The position numbers and the translations under genes were made by a program. A stretch of DNA of 64,000 bases from an uncultured Alphaproteobacteria bacterium (GTDB lineage: Bacteria > Pseudomonadota > Alphaproteobacteria > Caulobacterales > Aquidulcibacteraceae): contig CADEEL010000007.1 of NCBI GenBank assembly GCA_902826335.1, forward strand, positions 40,773-104,772. Direction: 5' to 3'. The notes below the pieces were generated by a model, which saw nothing but the letters and a program-made list of their open reading frames with translations, had not been told where the DNA came from and did not search any database. Position 1 is the first letter of the stretch, and every line of letters starts with the position of its first letter. Below, piece by piece: positions 51,721-63,725 of the stretch.

Positions 51721-52272
51721 ATGCGACCCTTGATTGCACTGGCGGCGCTGGCGCTGGCGGCGTGTTCGCAAGGCGAGGCGCCGCCGCAAGCCGCCGCGGC
51801 CGGCTGCGCGGCCGAGGCCTCAACGACCTGGGCGGCGGGCGACACGCGCTTTTCCATCGCGGCGCAAACGGCCGGCGCCGATTGCGCGCAGGCGAGCGCC
51901 ACGCTCACCATTCGCGGCGCGGACGGAACCGTCGATTGGACCGAGAGCTTCCCGGCCGCGCAGGTGATGACGCTGGCCGGCGCGCGCGACGCGGCGGCGA
52001 TGCGCGCGGCCCTCACTGATTGGATCGATCCCGCGACGATCGACATGCACACGACGGGCGCCCTGCCCGCCTGGGCGGCCAATGCCGAGACACCCATGCA
52101 GGGCGAGTTCGCCTTCTATCCCGAAGAAGGCATCGCCCGCGCCGAATACGAAGCGCTGCGCGGACGCGATGCGCCGCTCTATTGCTTCGTGCAGGGCATG
52201 GAGAGCGCGGCGTGCCTCGCCTACGAGGACGGGCGGATCGAGAAGATCGGCGTGCAGACGTTTCCGGGTTAG
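51721..52272 (+). CDS. Lipoprotein of unknown family
   Basis: 183 residues from ATG 51721. A lipobox (LALAAC, Cys 15) directs lipidation. The mature part has several Cys (GCAAE, DCAQ, YCFVQGMESAAC) and a TWAAGDTRFSIAAQTAG beginning, ending with EDGRIEKIGVQTFPG. No known family is recognised. The ribosome-binding site is GGGGAA close upstream. It ends with a four-base overlap with the convergent ATPase-like gene. Confidence 0.72.
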   Translation: MRPLIALAALALAACSQGEAPPQAAAAGCAAEASTTWAAGDTRFSIAAQTAGADCAQASATLTIRGADGTVDWTESFPAAQVMTLAGARDAAAMRAALTDWIDPATIDMHTTGALPAWAANAETPMQGEFAFYPEEGIARAEYEALRGRDAPLYCFVQGMESAACLAYEDGRIEKIGVQTFPG

Positions 52273-53702
52273 CCCGCGCCCGGAAGGTGCAACTCGATCC
52301 ATCTCCATAGTCTGCCGACAAGCGTTCGCAACTCGCCAATGGCTGTCAGGCCGCGAATTAATGTCGGTGCCGACGCGATCGCCTGCCAGAATGTCCTTAC
52401 AAACGCGCCGATCGTTATCACGCGCTTTGCCGGAGGAACTGATTCGTTCCCACCCAAGTCCGCCACGGCATCTGCGGCCTTGCCAACGCTTTCATCGAGG
52501 ACTTCACTAAACTCACCTGCCTCGATCCGTTCCACTAGTTCCAAGAATTCTGTCTCCGGAAAATTCGAGACGTTTCTGTAGCGGCTGAGAACTGCTTCAT
52601 ACTCAGCAAAGATCGGAGTTGAGCCACGTATTGCCACGTGATTAGTCGTGATAATTTCCAGCAACTTGACTGCTGCTGGCGGCATAGCGTCCCTCTCACT
52701 TTTTAGTTCCGAGAACATCGCTTCCGCCAGCGCATCCAAATAAACGATATTGGCCCTCTCACCGAGTTCGCATTGATCCGCGAATGCTCTCGTTGCGCGC
52801 TTAGCCGAGTTGGCGATATTCAATGCGTCAAGTTGACCTACGAAATCTCTCGCTAGGGTACCCTGAGCATCCAGCAAATCCTTTCGCGCCGCTTTAGATA
52901 GGTCGCCGGCGTTGTCTGTTCTTGCTGGCTGAGCCTCCAGTTTCTCCTCGCGCCACACAAAAGTGCTTGGCGAAAAGCGCTGGATGTCCACTTCCGTCTC
53001 ATCGTCGACAAGCACGGAGAAGCCAACAAGTCCAGGCACACGCAGCTCCGCCGGGAAAGTTCCGGCCGCTGAAGCAATTACCAATCGAGCGTTCGCGTTT
53101 GCGATCATATGAAATTCAATCTCGAATTTCAGCTTTCCTGCCGTCACTTCCTCGGCGTTCTCGATGTGAATCCAAATAATTCTGGTTCTTCCCGCTCCAA
53201 CCAACGCTTCTCCGAGATCATTGAATGCACGTTGATCAGCCTGAGACATTGATGCTAGAGCCCGGAAACGCAATTCTCTCAGCTGCTCGTTCTTTATGTT
53301 CTTTGAATATAGAGCCAGCTCGTCTAGAATTTCGCCCCTGTCTTGTTTGTCTTCCTCGACCGAATAGTATTTCAACAAAGACCGTACTCTACGCTCTCCG
53401 TAACTCCTAGATGGTTCATGCATATAGGCGCTCCGCGCCTTCCCAAGGCCACCTTCCGCGAACAATGCCTGGACGACTTTCTCCTCAACGACGGTCTGAA
53501 CGTCCCTGTGTCGAAGTCGCTTTTCCTTATCAACAACGAGTACCGATACGTCTTTCAGAGAAGCCACAAGGGCGGCCGCAGCTTCCAGAGCATTCCCTCG
53601 AAAGCCGCTAAGTCCAAGAAAATTTACAGACGGATTGTGAAGACATGCCTCTACGGCCGCCAACAAATTGGTCTGCCTACGAGTCTTCAAGTCTTCCGCC
53701 AT
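52269..53702 (-). CDS. Unrecognised ATPase-like protein with degenerate P-loop, coupled to ivd
   Basis: 477 residues from ATG 53702 (a GTG at 53705 is adjacent), behind GGGGAGGGG. Residues 27-40 (NFLGLSGFRGNALE) sit where a Walker A would be after a hydrophobic strand, but GxGK[S/T] is replaced by GNAL. A Walker-B-like strand RIIWIHIENAEE (174-185) follows, then VDDETEVDIQRFSP. The rest is helical with an amphipathic C-terminus. Its base composition is AT-richer than its neighbours. The ATG overlaps the ivd TGA (TGATG), an odd pairing with a metabolic gene. It may be a STAND- or KAP-like NTPase remnant; function unknown. Confidence 0.7.
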   Translation of the reverse strand: MAEDLKTRRQTNLLAAVEACLHNPSVNFLGLSGFRGNALEAAAALVASLKDVSVLVVDKEKRLRHRDVQTVVEEKVVQALFAEGGLGKARSAYMHEPSRSYGERRVRSLLKYYSVEEDKQDRGEILDELALYSKNIKNEQLRELRFRALASMSQADQRAFNDLGEALVGAGRTRIIWIHIENAEEVTAGKLKFEIEFHMIANANARLVIASAAGTFPAELRVPGLVGFSVLVDDETEVDIQRFSPSTFVWREEKLEAQPARTDNAGDLSKAARKDLLDAQGTLARDFVGQLDALNIANSAKRATRAFADQCELGERANIVYLDALAEAMFSELKSERDAMPPAAVKLLEIITTNHVAIRGSTPIFAEYEAVLSRYRNVSNFPETEFLELVERIEAGEFSEVLDESVGKAADAVADLGGNESVPPAKRVITIGAFVRTFWQAIASAPTLIRGLTAIGELRTLVGRLWRWIELHLPGAG

Positions 53703-54868
53703 CACCCCTCCCCCATCATCTCGCGCCCAATCAAGAACCGCCGCACTTCGTTGGTGCCGGCGCCGATGTCGTAGAGCTTGGCGTCGCGCAGGAGGCGCCC
53801 CGTCGGGTAGTCGTTGATATAGCCATTGCCGCCCAAGGCCTGGATCGCTTCGAGCGCGACCTTCACCGCGTTTTCCGAGGCATAGAGAATGGCGCCGGCC
53901 GCATCCTTGCGCGTGGGCTTGCCCTTATCGGCCGCGCGCGCGACGGCGTAAACATAAGACCGCGCGCTGGAGAGCGCGACATACATATCCGCCAGCTTGG
54001 CCTGCATGAGTTGGAATTCACCGATCGGCCGGCCGAATTGCTTGCGCTCCTTCACATAGGGCACAACCACATCGAGCGCGGCCTGCATAATCCCTAACGG
54101 CCCGGCGGCGAGCACCATGCGCTCATAATCGAGCCCGCTCATCAGCACGCGCACGCCGCCGTTTTCCGGGCCCATCACATTCTCGGCAGGCACCTCGACA
54201 TTGTCGAACACAAGCTCGCCCGTATCGCTGCCGCGCATGCCGACCTTGTCGAGCTTCTGCGACGTCGAAAACCCTTTCATGCCGCGTTCGATCAGGAACG
54301 CCGTGATGCCGCGCGCGCCAGCTTCCGGATCGGTCTTGGCGTACACCACCAACACTTCCGCATGCGGTGCATTGGTGATCCACATCTTGGTTCCATTGAG
54401 GATGTAGCGATCGCCCTTCTTCTCGGCGCGCAGCCGCATGCCGACGACATCGGAGCCCGCGCCGGTTTCGCTCATCGCCAGCGCGCCGACATGTTCGCCG
54501 CTGAGCAACTTTGGCAGATAGCGGCGCTTTTGCTCCGGCCCCGCCCAGCGATGGATCTGGTTGATGCAAAGGTTTGAGTGCGCGCCGTAGGAAAGGCCGA
54601 CGGCGGCCGAGCCGCGCGAAATCTCCTCCATGGCCACGACATGTTCGAGATAGCCGAGGCCCGCGCCGCCCCATTCTTCCGCCACCGTGATTCCATGCAG
54701 GCCCAGTTCGCCAAGGCGCGGCCACAGATCGCGCGGAAACGTGTTGGACTTGTCGATCTCGGCGGCGCGCGGCGCGATCTCGGCATCGGTGAAGCGCCCG
54801 GCGAGGTCGCGGATGGCGTCGGCGTTCTCGCCAAGATCATGATCGAAGTGCGGTGTATTGCGCAGCAT
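53702..54868 (-). CDS. ivd: Isovaleryl-CoA dehydrogenase (acyl-CoA dehydrogenase family)
   Basis: 388 residues from ATG 54868 ([21 protein letters not shown]). Acyl-CoA dehydrogenase motifs: [41 protein letters not shown], and the C-terminal [36 protein letters not shown]. The catalytic Glu in [11 protein letters not shown] near residue 250 is the position used by isovaleryl-CoA dehydrogenases rather than the C-terminal one. It acts in leucine breakdown. No other leucine-degradation genes are in the window. Confidence 0.93.
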
Positions 54869-56331: not shown

Positions 56332-56650
56332 GGGCGCCTCCGCGCGAGGGGTTGAGAACGAACCAGCCCAAAGGCCCGCGTCGCGCGTCAGGTCAAGTGT
56401 AAAATGCGAGGCGATCGGAAAAGCCCGCCCTGAAACTAGGGCGTTCTCGGGGCGTACACGCCATAATCGCACTTACCGGATGGCGCGCGCCACTGCATCC
56501 ATGCGGCTGTCCGCTGCATCTGATCGGAATGGTCAGCAGGTTTGCAGGGCGCATATCTTTGCACCGCTTGACCCGTGAGATTTGTGTGTTCCGGCGCACG
56601 CCCTCGGCCGGAGCGATGCGCGACGGGCTTGAACCCAGGGGAAAAGCGGC
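56332..56650. other. Intergenic region between mgtE and the CPBP gene
   Basis: 319 bases without a coding frame of note. It must contain the promoters for the divergent mgtE and CPBP genes. The only structure seen is a six-base stem-loop, CGCCCT/AGGGCG at 56426-56443, in the mgtE leader. It does not match a magnesium riboswitch that I recognise. Confidence 0.6.
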
Positions 56651-57553
56651 ATGACGCAACTTGAATATCCGGGCGGGCGCGGCCGCGTGACAAGTTGGCC
56701 GCTCGTTCGCTTTACGGCTTATGGCGCGGTGGCCTTGGCGACGATCGTCGTCGCCACGATCGCGACGCGTTTGCTTGCGCCGCCCGAACCGTCACCCTGG
56801 CGCGACCTGGCGTTGATCAAGAATTTTGTCCTGCCGATTGCGCTCTTCGCCATCTATGCCGGCCTCGTCCGGGTCATGGAGCGCCGCCGCGCCAGCGAGG
56901 TCGATTTCCGGACGGGATTCTCCACATTGCTTATCGGAATCCTGATCGGGTCGGTGATAATCAGCGCTACATTTCTCATCCTGTGGAACCTTGGGATGGC
57001 GGAGATTTCCAGCGGGACAGGCCTCGCTGGACTTCATCGCGAATTGCTCGCTCTCATGATCACGACCATGGTCGAAGAACTGCTCTTCAGAGTAATCCTG
57101 TTTGCGATCTTGGAAGAAATCACCGGCTCACTCCTCGCGATCGCGATTTCGGCGGCGGCGTTTGGGCTGGCGCACGCGGCAAATCCCGGCGCGACCCCGT
57201 TTGCGATTTTCGCGCTGTCGATGGAATTGGGTGGGATGCTTGCGCTTGCCTACATGTTGACTCGTAATGTTTGGATCGCCGTTGGCGTTCACGCCGGATG
57301 GAATTTCACGCAGAGCTTTATCCTCGGCGCGCAGAATTCCGGCCAGCAACACCCCAACAGCTACTTTCAAACAACGTTCTCAGGGCCGGACTATCTCACC
57401 GGCGGAGTGTTCGGCCTCGAAGGCTCGGTTGTGAGTCTGGGGCTAAGCGTGATTGTGTCCGCAATTTTGCTTGTTTTGGTCCTGCGCAAGCAACGCTGGA
57501 ACGGCCTGCGCTTTCGGCTCGGGAGTCCGCAACGCGAATTCGCGGTGGCGTAG
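56651..57553 (+). CDS. CPBP-family intramembrane protease (Abi-like)
   Basis: 300 residues with about eight helices. The CPBP motifs are intact: EELLFRVILFAILEE (Glu-Glu and Arg), FGLAHAANPGATPF (His), and GVHAGWNFTQSF (His and Asn). CPBP proteins include CAAX-type proteases and bacteriocin-immunity proteins. GGGGAAAAGCGGC precedes ATG 56651. It stands alone, with no bacteriocin genes nearby. Codon use is slightly AT-richer than the neighbours. Confidence 0.9.
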   Translation: MTQLEYPGGRGRVTSWPLVRFTAYGAVALATIVVATIATRLLAPPEPSPWRDLALIKNFVLPIALFAIYAGLVRVMERRRASEVDFRTGFSTLLIGILIGSVIISATFLILWNLGMAEISSGTGLAGLHRELLALMITTMVEELLFRVILFAILEEITGSLLAIAISAAAFGLAHAANPGATPFAIFALSMELGGMLALAYMLTRNVWIAVGVHAGWNFTQSFILGAQNSGQQHPNSYFQTTFSGPDYLTGGVFGLEGSVVSLGLSVIVSAILLVLVLRKQRWNGLRFRLGSPQREFAVA

Positions 57554-57892
57554 CGGGCGCATTAGCTGGAGATTTCGCTGATGTTGAACGTAGCGGCCCA
57601 ATTGGTTTCGGCCGAGTGCTGAACGAAAACCGGGACTAAATCAGAATCTCGAAAAAGGCCTCGTGCGCTCGAAGTAAATAGTACTAAAACCTTCGCCTGA
57701 TTTCCTCACCTTCGCCGATTTGTCTCAAGAGCGCCGACGGCGAACAGTCGGCCTGTCACTTGCACTGCCGGTTGCTCTGTTTTTCCTCAAACGTTCGGAC
57801 TGGGAGTAAGATAGTCGTAAAATACCGCCATCCGTTCGTCCCCGATTTTTTCTGATCGATCTTAAACCTGCCGACAGTCGCCTGGCTCGCCT
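57554..57892. other. Intergenic region after the CPBP gene
   Basis: 339 bases with no supported gene. It is AT-richer than most of the window and lies between the stop of the CPBP gene and the stop of the convergent GNAT gene. Several short frames begin here but none has a ribosome-binding site or family similarity. No clear terminator hairpin was found. Confidence 0.6.
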
Positions 57893-58339
57893 TTATGAAG
57901 GTGGCATGGCCAGCTTGCGAACGATCTGTCCTGATGGTTCGTGCGCCTCCTCAGCGACCAATTCGAAGCCGTAGCGCTCATAGAATGGCCGCCCGATCTC
58001 GTTGTCCCGTAATACATCTACCTTGAGCGGCCCTTTGATGGCGCTAGCGTGGTCCACGAGGGCCTTGCCATATCCCCTGCCGTGCTTCGACGGGTCCACG
58101 AACAAGCCGCCAATTTCGTTTCCTAGGAGCGAAATAAAGCCAACAACTTCCCTGCCCTCTTCGGCCACATAGGTTTCCGCGTTCGGGACATAGAGGTCGC
58201 GAACTTCCCGTTCCACCTGCGCGACATAGGCCACGCTCAGGAACGGATGCGCAACCGCGTTGGCGCGCCGCCAAATACGCATCACTGGTTCAAAGTCCTC
58301 AAGGCGATAATGTCGGATGGAAGGTGTGGCGTTAATCAT
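57893..58339 (-). CDS. GNAT-family N-acetyltransferase
   Basis: 148 residues. GNAT signatures: IRHYRLEDFEPVMRIWRRANAVAHPFLS at the start, VVGFISLLGNEIGGLFVDPSKHGRGYGKALVDHA with the acetyl-CoA P-loop (GRGYGKAL), and VDVLRDNEIGRPFYERYGFELV. The acceptor is unknown. Its ATG overlaps the end of the upstream hypothetical gene by eight bases, so the two are an operon. Confidence 0.93.
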   Translation of the reverse strand: MINATPSIRHYRLEDFEPVMRIWRRANAVAHPFLSVAYVAQVEREVRDLYVPNAETYVAEEGREVVGFISLLGNEIGGLFVDPSKHGRGYGKALVDHASAIKGPLKVDVLRDNEIGRPFYERYGFELVAEEAHEPSGQIVRKLAMPPS

Positions 58340-58706
58340 TGTGCGCAGTCCGTATTAAATCATTCACCTCTTCGAAAACGTTTTGCCCGACCTCCGGACG
58401 CGTGGCCCACTGAAAATTCTCCACCAATTGCAGGCGGCCGTCCGGAAGGCAGTTCAAGGTCCCCGTGGAGGCGCCCGCGTCGATGCGACCGCGGCGATCG
58501 GCCTGCACGTAACGAAACTCCAGCTCTCCGCCCGAGTGCGCTTTGCCGATAAGATAACCATCCACGACCTCTCCGCCTCGATAACGCGCTGAAAACAAGT
58601 CTCCCGTCTGCTCAAATTCAAACAAGGTTTCGGCGGAGACGGCCGCGACCTCGCTGCCGGATACGGCGCGCATACGCACGCCATGAAGACAAAGTGAGGC
58701 GGTCAT
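58332..58706 (-). CDS. Small protein upstream of the GNAT gene
   Basis: 124 residues from ATG 58706 (MTASLCLHGVRMRAVSGSEVAAVSAETLFEFEQTGD). Characteristic segments are FEQTGDLFSARYRGGEVVDGYLIGK, ELEFRYVQAD, and LNCLPDGRLQLVENFQWATRPEVGQNVFEEV. This is a lipocalin-like small domain sometimes annotated as 'N-acetylglutamate synthase' because of its GNAT neighbour; that name is not supported. It overlaps the GNAT gene by eight bases. Confidence 0.8.
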   Translation of the reverse strand: MTASLCLHGVRMRAVSGSEVAAVSAETLFEFEQTGDLFSARYRGGEVVDGYLIGKAHSGGELEFRYVQADRRGRIDAGASTGTLNCLPDGRLQLVENFQWATRPEVGQNVFEEVNDLIRTAHND

Positions 58707-58758
58707 CGTCGACCTCTTAGGCCATGTAGCGGCGGGCCAACTGCGTCGCGACGCATCC

Positions 58759-59367
58759 TTATCGACGCGCGGACACACGCACTTGTGGGCGCCAAGACTG
58801 GCCGCCATCTCCGCTGACTTCCACAAGCCACACCCAGCCGCCCGAGGTAGGCGCGAAACTCATTCTGTTATGATACCGCACGCCGCCAATCGCATAATGG
58901 GTTCCCGGCCCCACATTGCTCACCACCAGCGCGCCCTGCTCATCAAATACGCCTTCGTAGACATCGATCAACCCTGATTGATCGTCGCGCGAGGTGACGC
59001 GGTATTGCTGCTGCGCGGCGTCAAACGAGAACACGATATGGTAAACATACCGGCCTGATCTCGCATTGGTCTCAAGGTAGAGATCGTTCATGGTGGAGAT
59101 GAAACGGAGTTCGCCTTCGCCATTTGACCGCCAATCGCCAGCTTCTATGGGTGTGAATTGCTCAACACGCCAATCGCCGAGGAGAAAATCAAGCCGCGCG
59201 CGCGCCGCGCGGAGCTCAACTGCTTGGGAAGCCGGTTGAACTTGCGCCACAACGCCGCCCGGCGCGAGCGCCGACATCCCGATCACAGCCACGCCAAATG
59301 CAGAAACGACAAACCACTTTCGCACTCGAGCAATTCCTGGATTCCCCATGCCCCGACTCGCCTTCAT
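58759..59367 (-). CDS. Exported DUF1579-like protein
   Basis: 202 residues from ATG 59367, whose ATG overlaps the upstream TGA (ATGA). A signal peptide (ARVRKWFVVSAFGVAVIGMSALAPGGVVAQ) is present. The mature part has LDFLLGDWRVEQF, the same family start as the lipoprotein at 8836 (DFWVGEWDVSW), and ends DGGQSWRPQVRVSARR. It is co-transcribed with the exported NTF2-like gene before it. Function unknown. Confidence 0.78.
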   Translation of the reverse strand: MKASRGMGNPGIARVRKWFVVSAFGVAVIGMSALAPGGVVAQVQPASQAVELRAARARLDFLLGDWRVEQFTPIEAGDWRSNGEGELRFISTMNDLYLETNARSGRYVYHIVFSFDAAQQQYRVTSRDDQSGLIDVYEGVFDEQGALVVSNVGPGTHYAIGGVRYHNRMSFAPTSGGWVWLVEVSGDGGQSWRPQVRVSARR

Positions 59368-59849
59368 GGACTAGTTGCTTGCACCTGCGTGGCGCCCCAA
59401 TAATCCGTGTAGTCGCGATGCTCGGTGACCAATCCGTTCTCGATTGTGACGATTGTCACGATACGAAATCTCCACCGCGAGGATCCGTTCGCGGTCGCGG
59501 CGCCGATGAACACAACGCGCCCGGAGGATTCATAGACCCCCTCAACATCGTAATGAAGTGAAGTCACCGAGTTCTGCATCCAAAAGCGGATGCCGGCCAA
59601 AATTGCATCGCGCCCGCGGAATACGAACGGTGCGCCATTCACGCCAGTGAGGAGAAGCGACGTCGGGTCGTCGAATGTGGCCTCCTCGGCGTAGAGCGCT
59701 TCGAGTCTCGCCAAATCAAACGCCTGGTACGCGTCGAGGTAGGCGGCGGCCGCGGCGATCGTGGCCTCATGGTCTCTTTGAGAGTTTTGGGCGGCGGCTG
59801 GCGCCGCAACCGCGAGGGCGAACCAAAAAATGATCACTGCACGCAACAT
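59364..59849 (-). CDS. Exported SnoaL/NTF2-like protein
   Basis: 161 residues with a signal peptide (LRAVIIFWFALAVAAPAAA, cleavage before QNS). The NTF2-like fold is visible in AAYLDAYQAFDLARLEALYAEEATFDDPTS, GRDAILAGIRFWMQNSVTSLHYDV, and IVTIENGLVTEHRDYTDYW, which closes the cone. It overlaps the DUF1579-like gene and is divergent from the histidine kinase at 60007. Ligand or substrate unknown. Confidence 0.85.
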   Translation of the reverse strand: MLRAVIIFWFALAVAAPAAAQNSQRDHEATIAAAAAYLDAYQAFDLARLEALYAEEATFDDPTSLLLTGVNGAPFVFRGRDAILAGIRFWMQNSVTSLHYDVEGVYESSGRVVFIGAATANGSSRWRFRIVTIVTIENGLVTEHRDYTDYWGATQVQATSP

Positions 59850-60006
59850 TATCTGGCTCCTTACTCAGACGGCGCCCGGCCCACCCTTGCGCATCCTCGC
59901 GGCGCGAGGGAAACTTTGAGACAAAGGCAGGAAATCCACCGACAAAAAAGGACGCGGCAGGCCCACATCCTGCTAGTCTTGGCGGTGAACTCGCCGGACA
60001 GACAAT

Positions 60007-61074
60007 TTGGCTCTAATCTCTCCTCTTGCGCGCGGTCTGATCGGCTTCCGCATCGGCGTGTGGCTTTTTTCGTACGTGCTCTTCTTCACCATGCTCGCCG
60101 CCGGCGGCGCGGTGCGGGAGGACACGCCGCTCTATCTTGTTATGCTGGCGTTCATCGGCATGGCTCTCAGCGGGGCGACGGAGGCGGTCGTCAACCGCAC
60201 GCGCGCCGTGGCGACATTCCCTCGCCTACTCGTTGTCGCGATCGCCGTGCTCGTTGTGACCATTGTGAACGCCGCCATTGACGTGGCGACGCTAGGACGT
60301 TCCTTGTCGCCCCAATCTGCGCACACGGCCAGCTTCCTCCTGCTCAGCGGACTACAGTCCGTCGCGTTTCTTATCTGGATACACGCGTTCTACGCGGCTT
60401 GCGTCTGGCTTGTGGGCGCATCTCAGGAACTGGTGGACAAGGAAAAGCGCCTGGCGGAGGCGCAGACCGAGACGCAGCGCGCCACACTTCAGGCCCTGCG
60501 GTCCCAGGTGAATCCGCACTTTCTCTTCAACGCGCTAAACGCGGCGGCCTCCTTAGTCGCAACGCAGCGCAACAAGCAGGCCGAGGAACTGATTGTCAGG
60601 CTCTCGGAATTCTTCCGCTCCTCCCTCGCCAGCGATCGCCAAGCCATGATCAGTCTGAGTGAGGAGTTCGATACACTGGACGCCTACCTCCAAATCGAAC
60701 TCATCCGCTTCCCCGGTAGGCTCGACGTGACCATGGACTGCCCCGCCGAGCTTGAATACTCGGCTGTGCCAAGCTTTCTATTGCTGCCTCTTGTCGAAAA
60801 CGCCATCAAGCACGCCGTCGCCCATTCCACGTCGCGTGTCCATCTGCGCATCAGCGCCACCGGCGCCAATGAGCGCCTGACCCTTACAGTGGAAGACGAG
60901 ACGGGCAAAAAGGTTGAACCTGTAGCAAGCCAAGGCGAGGGAGTTGGCCTCAGGAACGTGAGCCAACGCTTGCAAGCGATGTTTGGAGCGACGGCGGCGC
61001 TGGAAGCGACGGCGACGAGCCGTGGTTTCCGCGTTCGCATCGATCTCCCGTTAGTTGAGGGACGGGCGCCATGA
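60007..61074 (+). CDS. LytS-type sensor histidine kinase
   Basis: 355 residues. The N-terminal half has about four membrane helices (GFRIGVWLFSYVLFFTML, YLVMLAFIGMALSG, LLVVAIAVLVVTIVNA, ASFLLLSGLQSVAFLIWIHAFY). The His_kinase domain has the phospho-acceptor in NPHFLFNALNAAASL, the N-box PSFLLLPLVENAIKHAV, and the G-box GEGVGLRNVSQRL. TTG 60007 is taken as the start because no ATG precedes the first helix; the ribosome-binding site is weak. Its TGA overlaps the response-regulator ATG. Confidence 0.9.
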   Translation: MALISPLARGLIGFRIGVWLFSYVLFFTMLAAGGAVREDTPLYLVMLAFIGMALSGATEAVVNRTRAVATFPRLLVVAIAVLVVTIVNAAIDVATLGRSLSPQSAHTASFLLLSGLQSVAFLIWIHAFYAACVWLVGASQELVDKEKRLAEAQTETQRATLQALRSQVNPHFLFNALNAAASLVATQRNKQAEELIVRLSEFFRSSLASDRQAMISLSEEFDTLDAYLQIELIRFPGRLDVTMDCPAELEYSAVPSFLLLPLVENAIKHAVAHSTSRVHLRISATGANERLTLTVEDETGKKVEPVASQGEGVGLRNVSQRLQAMFGATAALEATATSRGFRVRIDLPLVEGRAP

Positions 61075-61889
61075 CGCTTCGCGTGCTGATCGTCGATGAC
61101 GAGCCGTTGGCGCTCGATCGCATACGTTTTGCGTTGCGGGCCGCGTCAGACGCCACTGTAGTCGGCGAAGCGCGCTCTGGCGTGGAGGCGCTGAAACAAG
61201 TCGAAGCGTTGATACCGGATATCGTGCTTCTGGATGTGCAAATGCCGGGTGGCGGCGGCATCGACGTCGCGCGCAAGCTGCAAGCCATGCGACCTGGCCC
61301 AGAGGTAATTTTTGCGACCGCCTTCGACTCATACGCTGCTGAAGCATTCGATCTCGACGCCTCCGACTATCTACTGAAACCCATCCGCGACGACCGCCTC
61401 CTTTCCGCGATCGATCGAGCCGTGCGACGCATCGAAGCGCGGCACGCTGGTGAACGCATCGCCGAACTCGAGTTGGTGGTTCAAGCGCTGCAGCAACCGA
61501 GCGGAACGCCGGGCGCCAAATACGATGCCGAACTCTGGGCGCCGCGGCCGGGCGGCGTCTCGCGCTTGCCGATCCAGAACATTATATGGATCGAGGCTGC
61601 GCGGGACTATCTGTTAGTGCACACGCTCCATCGCAGCTTTATCCTCCGCGAAACCATGGGTGGCGTCGGCAAGCGGTTAGATCCTGCACGCATGCTGCGC
61701 GTGCACCGTTCGGCGTTCGTGAACAAGTCCAATATCGAGACAGCGACCCGCTCCGGCCGCGACGGCGTCCGCCTTACATTGACCAACGGTGCGATCGTAC
61801 GTGTCGGCGCCACCTATCGCGACGCCGTGCTTGGTGCGATCGGCGCCGCCATTCCCAATCGCCGCCGTGACCGGGACAGTGGAGGCTAG
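61071..61889 (+). CDS. LytTR-family response regulator
   Basis: 272 residues. The receiver domain has DDEPLALDR, the phospho-acceptor Asp in IVLLDVQMPGGGG, and the Lys in DYLLKPI. The C-terminal LytTR DNA-binding domain has WIEAARDYLLVHTLHRSFILRETMGGV and RVHRSAFVNKSNIETATR. It is coupled to the kinase by an ATGA overlap, so the two are a pair. Likely targets are the neighbouring exported-protein genes; no LytTR direct repeat was confirmed. Confidence 0.93.
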   Translation: MTLRVLIVDDEPLALDRIRFALRAASDATVVGEARSGVEALKQVEALIPDIVLLDVQMPGGGGIDVARKLQAMRPGPEVIFATAFDSYAAEAFDLDASDYLLKPIRDDRLLSAIDRAVRRIEARHAGERIAELELVVQALQQPSGTPGAKYDAELWAPRPGGVSRLPIQNIIWIEAARDYLLVHTLHRSFILRETMGGVGKRLDPARMLRVHRSAFVNKSNIETATRSGRDGVRLTLTNGAIVRVGATYRDAVLGAIGAAIPNRRRDRDSGG

Positions 61890-61890
61890 G

Positions 61891-62466
61891 CTACTGCCTA
61901 ATCGTGATCTGTTGACTGGGCTCGTAGCGCCGTTCGTCGGCGCGCGTCATGATTACCGCAGTTTCGCCGAGTGGCCGATTGAGGATAGTACCACCTCCGA
62001 ATCTCCAACCCTCGTCTGAACGCGCCATTACGCAATACTCAGGTTGCGACGGCTCAGCAGCCTCATAGCGCGTGTCCAATACAGCAACCACATAAGGAAC
62101 GCGCTCCCTAAAGCAGTGTCCCAACTCGGTGCATGGCAGCTGCGCCGACGATACCGGCGCATAGCTCCTAATGGAGTAGGACAACAACGCACCGCTTCGC
62201 CGCCTAGATCGTTCAACGCCGCGCGTCCAGCGCCGACGATCAAACCACCTCCGAATCCGCGGATCCGTAAGCCGCCATTGCGAAGCGTAGTCTTCGCGCT
62301 GATAGGAAGCGATCCACTCATTCATCGCTTCCAGGGCGGCTTGGACATCCGCTTCTTGCGCGCCCACTGGCCACGTATCGTCGTCGGCGAACGCCTCACC
62401 GCCCAGAGCGACTCCGCCCACCATCGCCCACACAAACGAACCGAGCAATTTTCGTCGCAGCCACAT
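61891..62466 (-). CDS. Exported DUF4019-like protein
   Basis: 191 residues with a signal peptide (LRRKLLGSFVWAMVGGVALGGEAFA). The mature region fits the DUF4019 pattern: ALEAMNEWIASYQREDYASQWRLTDPRIRRWFDRRRWTRGVERSRRRSG. The C-terminal YEPSQQITIRQ follows a stretch with two Cys (LPCTELGHCF). It starts three bases from the stop of the upstream NTF2-like gene and converges on the response regulator. Function unknown. Confidence 0.75.
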   Translation of the reverse strand: MWLRRKLLGSFVWAMVGGVALGGEAFADDDTWPVGAQEADVQAALEAMNEWIASYQREDYASQWRLTDPRIRRWFDRRRWTRGVERSRRRSGALLSYSIRSYAPVSSAQLPCTELGHCFRERVPYVVAVLDTRYEAAEPSQPEYCVMARSDEGWRFGGGTILNRPLGETAVIMTRADERRYEPSQQITIRQ

Positions 62467-62469
62467 GAC

Positions 62470-62964
62470 TCATGGCCGCGGCAGGCGGGTGGCGATCGCA
62501 CCCTCATAATTCGCGTAATCCTCGTGGCGAACGACGTGGCGATCATGAATTGTCAGCACGGTCACTTGTTCCCCACGCCACCGATACGCGTACTCGACCC
62601 CCGGAGGCGCCGCGTGGACATTCACGAAGCCGGCGAACACAACGATATCATTGCTCTCGAACACCGTCGGAAATTCGAAGCCCAGTTGGATTACGCCTTG
62701 GTCTCGCCCGAACGTCCGCAGCATCTGCAACGCTGCCTCCCGGCCTCGGTGTTCCGGTTGGAAATCAGGGTCGGGGTTGGTGCGGTCGATCAAAACGTAG
62801 TCGTTCCCCATATAGGGCGACATTCCATCCCAGTTCGCTTCGGAGTAGGCCTGCATGTAGGCTCTCGCGATTTGCTCCACCTCGCTCGGCGCAGGCCCTT
62901 GCGCGAATGCCGCGACAGGAGCGACGAGCAACGCAAGCGCCGCGAACAGCATCCTTCCGCACAT
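62470..62964 (-). CDS. Exported SnoaL/NTF2-like protein, second
   Basis: 164 residues from ATG 62964, preceded by GGAAGG; the longer frame is discarded. A signal peptide (MCGRMLFAALALLVAPVAAFA) precedes QGPAPSEVEQIARAYMQAYSEANWDGMSPYMGNDYVLIDRT, a NTF2-like start, then FGRDQGVIQLGFEFPTVF and VTVLTIHDRHVVRHEDYANYEG, the same closing strand as the protein at 59364. It is three bases from the DUF4019-like gene on the same strand. Confidence 0.85.
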   Translation of the reverse strand: MCGRMLFAALALLVAPVAAFAQGPAPSEVEQIARAYMQAYSEANWDGMSPYMGNDYVLIDRTNPDPDFQPEHRGREAALQMLRTFGRDQGVIQLGFEFPTVFESNDIVVFAGFVNVHAAPPGVEYAYRWRGEQVTVLTIHDRHVVRHEDYANYEGAIATRLPRP

Positions 62965-63182
62965 GCGTGCTTCCTTTCCGTGTTGCACGAACTTGAAAGC
63001 ACGAATCCGCAGCTCTGCGCCCGCGGTTTGAGACGAACCCGGTAAATCCAACGCGCCAAACGCCGCCGCATCCATCAAGCCTCGATGATAACATCCTTCG
63101 CACTTGCGTTGCCGCAGTACAAAAGCGCTGATCTCCCGATTTGGCCTAAGCAACCATATCTACGCCCGCTTACGCGACGATC

Positions 63183-63278
63183 CTAATGATTGCGGCACAG
63201 ATCCGCCGTCGCCACCCCCGCCTCGTGCTCGCGCCGAATCGCAATGATCTGCTCTTCGCTGAACCGCTTCCGCTTCAT
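63183..63278 (-). pseudogene. IS3-family orfA remnant
   Basis: A 31-codon frame from ATG 63278 reads MKRKRFSEEQIIAIRREHEAGVATADLCRNH and then stops. This is the N-terminus of an IS3-family transposase orfA, which normally continues through a helix-turn-helix (G-S-x-A-T-F-Y-x-W). Everything past the first helices is missing, so it is a dead footprint. No terminal inverted repeats or orfB were found beside it. Confidence 0.82.
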
Positions 63279-63345
63279 TTCCGGCTCCCTAAGTGGGCCG
63301 GACTCTAGCTCCAGATGGAGGAGTTCGCGGGGGTCACGTCAACGC

Positions 63346-63582
63346 TTATAACCGCTTCTTCGCGAAGGCTCGGCCTGAGCCCGACTTCAGGTAGCGCTCA
63401 AACGCGAACGCCCGCGCCTCATCATCGAACGCAACGAAAGTTCTAACGCGCCACGGCCCGAATTTCGATGTGTGGGTCACATTTCCAGCATAGTGCGATT
63501 TCACGCGCGCCTGCACGTCCTTAGTGACGCCCACATAGAAATGGTCGCCGTTCTCGCTCTCGAGAATGTATACGTATTTCAT
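63346..63582 (-). CDS. GIY-YIG nuclease-domain protein
   Basis: 78 residues, one GIY-YIG domain: KYVYILESENGDHFYVGVTKDVQARVKSHYAGNVTHTSKFGPWRV with the catalytic Tyr pair and Arg, and AFAFERYLKSGSGRAFAKKRL with the Glu. The motif reads VYI..YVG rather than strict GIY..YIG, as is usual in the short UPF0213 group. Role unknown; possibly DNA repair or mobile. Confidence 0.9.
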   Translation of the reverse strand: MKYVYILESENGDHFYVGVTKDVQARVKSHYAGNVTHTSKFGPWRVRTFVAFDDEARAFAFERYLKSGSGRAFAKKRL

Positions 63583-63725
63583 CGGCCAGTCCCGTCTTCG
63601 CCGGCTGATCCGTGGGAAGAACTGCGGGCTTGCCCAGCCGTAGCTGCGCGCGGGGGCGAAGGTCCGCCTTCGCGCTAAAAATTTTGGAGCTTTGGCCTGC
63701 CAGCCGTAGCGCGAAGCGCGAAGGC

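Follow-up and report, generated by a model that had tools for sequence, protein, structure and literature searches.

A LytS/LytTR two-component pair accompanied by exported-looking NTF2-like proteins in a probably transferred, mosaic insert of an alphaproteobacterium

In described systems such as AlgZ/AlgR of Pseudomonas, YehU/YehT and LytS/LytR, a PF06580 histidine kinase with an NPHFLFN motif and a multi-transmembrane N-terminus without a large sensor domain is combined with a LytTR response regulator that is encoded within the operon of the kinase. A gene pair of this kind is found in the DNA analyzed here, a stretch of 64,000 nucleotides (contig CADEEL010000007.1, positions 40,773 to 104,772, assembly GCA_902826335.1) from an uncultured alphaproteobacterium of the Aquidulcibacteraceae, which we refer to as the window. 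In contrast to the known LytS/LytTR systems, the pair in the window is ringed by exported-looking NTF2-like and putative calycin-like proteins, and no canonical direct repeats were found next to it. Our best reading, to which we assign a probability of roughly 0.5, is that the locus represents a horizontally exchanged, mobile LytS/LytTR cassette that would respond to a signal at the level of the membrane and control exported binding or enzymatic proteins. Six intact genes make up positions 58759-62964, listed here together with the divergent gap between them:

58759..59367, minus strand: DUF1579-like, putatively exported protein, modeled with low confidence as a calycin/nitrobindin-type beta barrel (Pfam score near the cut-off, AlphaFold model)
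59364..59849, minus strand: NTF2a, putatively exported SnoaL_2/NTF2-like protein (Pfam SnoaL_2)
59850..60006, no strand: divergent NTF2a/kinase intergenic region, 157 bp, no LytTR-type direct repeat
60007..61074, plus strand: LytS-type (PF06580) sensor kinase (His_kinase, H-box)
61071..61889, plus strand: LytTR response regulator (Response_reg and LytTR domains)
61891..62466, minus strand: DUF4019-like, putatively exported protein with a predicted NTF2-like fold (Pfam score near the cut-off, predicted model)
62470..62964, minus strand: NTF2b, putatively exported SnoaL_2/NTF2-like protein (Pfam SnoaL_2)

The initial annotation of this DNA had placed the two-component pair between two tight minus-strand pairs of small proteins, and this arrangement was borne out for all six genes. 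The DUF1579-like and NTF2a genes overlap by 4 bp, as do the kinase and regulator reading frames, while 3 bp lie between the DUF4019-like and NTF2b genes. Regulator and DUF4019-like gene are convergent, tail to tail, with a gap of 1 bp. This clustering exceeds chance: the source genome (2.91 Mb, 66 contigs) contains 14 SnoaL_2 matches, the Poisson probability of at least two such genes in a given stretch of 4-10 kb is 2e-4 to 1e-3, and the arrangement recurs in other genera. A second NTF2b copy, 66% identical and with no LytTR gene nearby, is located on contig C41 of the source genome (L101:8194-8688).

The sensor/regulator pair itself is an ordinary LytS/LytTR system; what is unusual is the mosaic insertion and the presence of exported NTF2-like proteins beside the pair. 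The kinase matches His_kinase PF06580 (E 1e-24, 86.7 bits) and HATPase_c (34.7 bits) and carries the H-box NPHFLFN with an invariant histidine, and the regulator, encoded in the same operon, has both a receiver (Response_reg, E 4e-26) and a LytTR domain (E 6e-15) above cut-off. The kinase is similar in size to AlgZ, whose gene has 1077 nt (PMC4064291). Compared to the LytR and BtsR models, the window system scores well below the equivalog cut-offs. The N-terminus of the kinase consists of about four transmembrane helices with no large loop between them and no periplasmic sensor domain. Since there is no extracytoplasmic sensor domain, we infer that the kinase perceives its signal within or at the membrane. 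It is one of two LytS-type kinases in the source genome. Directly upstream of the second LytS/LytTR pair (contig C56) lies a gene for a 162-amino-acid exported-looking protein without Pfam match (L066:193-681), and a DUF1579-like identity of this protein was rejected, since neither a Pfam match nor similarity was found.

Relatives of the cluster were sought in a sample of 398 genomes of the order, to which the G-numbers refer. Besides the window, three loci carry the cluster, in G106, G049 and G101. Kinase and NTF2b lay within 5 kb of each other in 4/4 genomes of the sample that passed both thresholds (1e-42 for the kinase, 1e-25 for NTF2b). In G106, which belongs to another family, all six genes recur in equivalent positions round an orthologous kinase, on the same contig as CADEDN010000004.1 (RBC008), with identities of 68% for the kinase, 73% for the regulator, 61% for NTF2a and 68% for NTF2b. 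Its cluster contains two further exported genes, Lumazine_bd_2 and DUF4440, between NTF2a and the kinase; both families we take to belong to the NTF2 clan of Pfam. In G049, a member of the same family as the window, the order is kinase, regulator, M61-like peptidase, NTF2b, esterase, NTF2a and DUF1579, without DUF4019, and kinase, regulator, NTF2b, NTF2a and DUF1579 all fall within 6.4 kb. Here the identities are 55% (kinase), 58% (regulator), 88% (NTF2a) and 58% (NTF2b). In G101, about 4 kb hold regulator, kinase and NTF2a- and NTF2b-like genes, with TonB-receptor-like genes on the flanks. The cluster is real and found repeatedly: its neighborhood is complete in G106 and partially conserved in G049 and, with more distant relatives, in G101. 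The initial annotation had named the lack of a conserved neighborhood as part of what would speak against it, and since the neighborhood is conserved, that part of its test came out in its favor. NTF2a is paired with NTF2b in four families of the order, and this combination is more widespread among genomes than the one with the regulator; in G307, NTF2b is accompanied by Lumazine_bd_2, DUF4440 and a TonB receptor. Outside the order, a search of about 200 genomes of the class with a threshold of E 1e-45 gave no cluster member. Plasmid carriage of the cluster was rejected on the results from PLSDB, which gave no NTF2b relative and no kinase match covering 80% of the query.

The cluster lies between mgtE and tRNA-Leu(GAG), together with the following features:

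56332..63725, no strand: mgtE to tRNA-Leu(GAG) interval holding the cluster, 7394 bp, GC mostly 0.55-0.63
57893..58339, minus strand: GNAT acetyltransferase, left block common to G049 (domain and DNA match to G049)
58332..58706, minus strand: hypothetical protein, left block common to G049 (74% identity, same order in G049)
63181..63279 (approximate), minus strand: truncated transposase start (HTH_Tnp_1, 31 amino acids) upstream of NTF2b (Pfam domain)

This interval is a variable site, as it has four very different lengths within the genus: besides the window, about 120 bp in G011, about 1.1 kb in G010 and about 10.9 kb in G012. In these three genomes the four small proteins were not found, nor was the kinase at comparable identity. 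The GC content of the interval contrasts with about 0.66 around it. DNA matches split the cluster in two, with 79% identity to G049 over 57903-59944 (GNAT to NTF2a) and a match of 70% to G106 that begins at 60007, G106 being the closest relative of the half from kinase to NTF2b. Likewise, the window groups with G049 in the NTF2a tree (support 0.996) and with G106 in the kinase tree (support 0.997). The control gene mgtE follows the expected order of relatedness, being 75-77% identical in genomes of its genus, 67% in G049 and 53% in G106. The split DNA matches and the conflicting trees, while mgtE follows relatedness, support horizontal exchange, with the NTF2a/kinase gap as the site of the junction. 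The junction of the mosaic halves is likely located at 59945-60006, and the cluster stretch is probably a horizontally transferred insert beside the tRNA gene. A tRNA-site integrative element was considered and rejected, since neither an integrase nor an attachment-site repeat was found and only the position adjoining tRNA-Leu fits. A small GIY-YIG nuclease-domain protein is encoded at 63346-63582, adjoining the tRNA-Leu gene. Elsewhere in the window, GC dips to about 0.51 at 52269-53705, over a reading frame of 478 amino acids that is assigned to no family, with 0.65-0.70 on either side.

All four small proteins look exported, as each has a signal-peptide-like hydrophobic N-terminal segment (judged by eye and by Kyte-Doolittle hydropathy), weakest in the DUF4019-like protein. 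NTF2a (E 5e-14, 53.1 bits) and NTF2b (E 3e-9, 37.9 bits) exceed the SnoaL_2 cut-off of 27 bits and thereby belong to the superfamily of SnoaL cyclases, ketosteroid isomerase (KSI) and limonene-epoxide hydrolase; their profile matches include the SnoaL-like protein 3gzb, KSI and limonene-epoxide hydrolase. Unlike these enzymes they have signal-peptide-like N-termini, and the sequences are too distant for a transfer of reaction. M1, Y40, D60, T62, V109, F110, H147 and D149 (NTF2b numbering) are invariant across 16 relatives of the NTF2a and NTF2b groups. Since Y40, D60, T62, H147 and D149 are invariant in both, an enzyme-like pocket is suggested. The DUF4019-like protein is related to DUF4019 but stays below the membership cut-off (26.0 versus 26.5 bits; homologues 20.4 and 16.9). 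Its model (pLDDT, predicted local distance difference test, 82) predicts with good confidence an NTF2/cystatin-like alpha+beta fold; the NTF2-like domain of PBP5 matches it over 112 residues with Z about 10, and KSI-like proteins reach about 9. The predicted fold is the same as in the NTF2-like domains of PBP2a and PBP5, from which the protein differs in being a single exported domain with a cysteine pair, PCTE-x-x-HC (C112, C118), that is invariant in the alignment of the window protein and its relatives. Some DUF4019-like proteins have a twin-arginine-like start (LRRKLLGS in the window, LRRDFLTA in G106), and export by the twin-arginine translocation pathway is therefore possible. The DUF1579-like protein scores 23.7 bits against a Pfam cut-off of 25.2; the G049 orthologue passes with 28.9, and the G106 orthologue has no match. 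With low confidence, its model is a calycin/nitrobindin-type barrel that has the topology of OlmO, OssO and nitrobindin (Z 18.6 to the spirocyclase OlmO, 17-19 to OlmO/OssO, about 15 to nitrobindin), to which the sequence is only 14-17% identical. The repeated theme of small exported proteins is stronger than the initial annotation had claimed: an NTF2-like fold is present or predicted in three of the four (NTF2a, NTF2b and the DUF4019-like protein), the G106 cluster contributes Lumazine_bd_2 and DUF4440 as well, and TonB-receptor-like genes flank the G101 cluster.

Regulation of the small proteins by the neighboring regulator had been proposed together with LytTR direct repeats at 59850-60006 and 62965-63182. 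Scans against the LytTR consensus and for self-repeats, judged against 100 shuffles, gave no direct repeats of this type (about 11-13 bp apart) beyond chance in either region. This is not decisive, since AlgR does not use direct repeats in every case (PMC4064291) and the repeats of LytTR sites may depart from the consensus (PMC6193735). Upstream of NTF2b in G106 (L051, upstream of 6411) there is a perfect 9-bp direct repeat, CGGGTTTGG-N11-CGGGTTTGG, that fits the LytTR geometry. It is one match among ten scanned regions, is absent in the window and is kept as a lead only. An AlgR-like GGGTTCGTC upstream of the window NTF2b and in the M61/kinase gap of G049 is two positions off the AlgR site and was not used. 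Matches to sigma-70-type promoters were no more frequent than expected by chance. One candidate element was noted upstream of NTF2a:

59914..59926, no strand: 13-bp dyad CTTTG-N3-CAAAG, candidate operator/promoter element, conserved in G049

NTF2a and the kinase are indeed divergent, but the argument that they share a promoter is weakened, because the two parts of the gap seem to have different histories: the NTF2a side is conserved in G049, where NTF2a does not adjoin the kinase, and the kinase side resembles G106. The dyad kept away from the kinase in G049 rather argues for an own promoter of NTF2a.

That the regulator controls the exported proteins is the weakest step of our explanation, and we see about an even chance that it controls at least one flanking pair. 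Several observations weigh against a mobile cassette governed by its own regulator, among them the missing repeats described above. The relatives of NTF2a, NTF2b and DUF4019 examined in the order mostly occur without a LytTR pair nearby, and regulation therefore need not follow from physical linkage. Among the genomes examined, six of family f4 have NTF2a and NTF2b side by side with no LytTR gene nearby; in at least two of them (L105, L106) the genes are located between rbfA and infB, and L106 has a third NTF2-like gene beside them. In G101, the kinase is only distantly related and not a clear orthologue. On the side of mobility, no integrase was recognized among the reading frames of the interval, and the search for a duplicated attachment site gave no exact repeat of more than 11 bases with the tRNA 3' end and none beyond chance length. 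Furthermore, mgtE is the only control gene for the expected relatedness, the compared genomes are many-contig drafts, and the mean pLDDT of the DUF1579-like model, built from three sequences, is only 64. What stands of the earlier interpretation is thus the conserved neighborhood and the exported look, while control by the LytTR regulator stays hypothetical.

It is also plausible, though less likely, that the exported NTF2-like and DUF1579-like genes are independent cargo of the variable site and that the LytS/LytTR pair regulates genes elsewhere and not its neighbors. DUF4019 and NTF2b are found alone in many genomes, and the different histories of the cluster halves and the NTF2a upstream sequence kept in G049 away from the kinase point in the same direction as the f4 pairs and the missing repeats. 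However, the same partners round the kinase, complete in G106 and partial in G049 despite rearrangement, are not expected of wholly independent cargo, and NTF2a and NTF2b also lie beside the distant LytS/LytTR pair of G101.

If a regulated, horizontally exchanged cassette is the right reading, the kinase would sense its membrane signal and then phosphorylate the LytTR regulator, which would adjust how one flanking pair or both, and perhaps its own operon, are transcribed. In the envelope, the exported proteins would act on small, probably hydrophobic, molecules by binding or converting them; the periplasmic sensing or scavenging role initially put forward likewise stays a proposal. The order of events might be reversed, with the NTF2-like and barrel proteins binding an envelope ligand and, as accessory sensors, passing the signal to the kinase in the membrane. 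A kinase without its own sensor domain outside the membrane and folds typical of ligand binders would agree with this, but we consider it improbable, as the conserved D and H residues of both NTF2 groups equally suit an enzyme and the proteins are mostly found where the kinase is missing. Similarly doubtful is an ordinary, vertically inherited neighborhood lost in most relatives without horizontal exchange: an ancient cluster that underwent losses could explain why several families have it, and the GC content is only moderately low, but the kinase is closer to the other family than to its own where mgtE shows the reverse, NTF2a is 88% identical to G049, the conflicting trees are strongly supported, and the mgtE-tRNA interval is compact in G011 and of other sizes in G010 and G012.

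A literature search for LytTR systems with NTF2-like or SnoaL neighbors returned nothing related, and the collection searched contains almost no functional literature on the exported NTF2-like, DUF4019-like and DUF1579-like families. The most reusable result is the pairing of NTF2a and NTF2b in four families, as it predicts that both proteins work together, whatever regulates them. It is a rather long shot that the exported NTF2-fold and lipocalin-like set forms, as a mobile LytS/LytTR-controlled envelope system, an undescribed periplasmic pathway of small-molecule processing or signaling. Should these genes prove to be under the control of the regulator, the locus would provide a first handle on the exported NTF2-like, DUF4019-like and DUF1579-like proteins and a rare lead to the signal of a LytS-type kinase.

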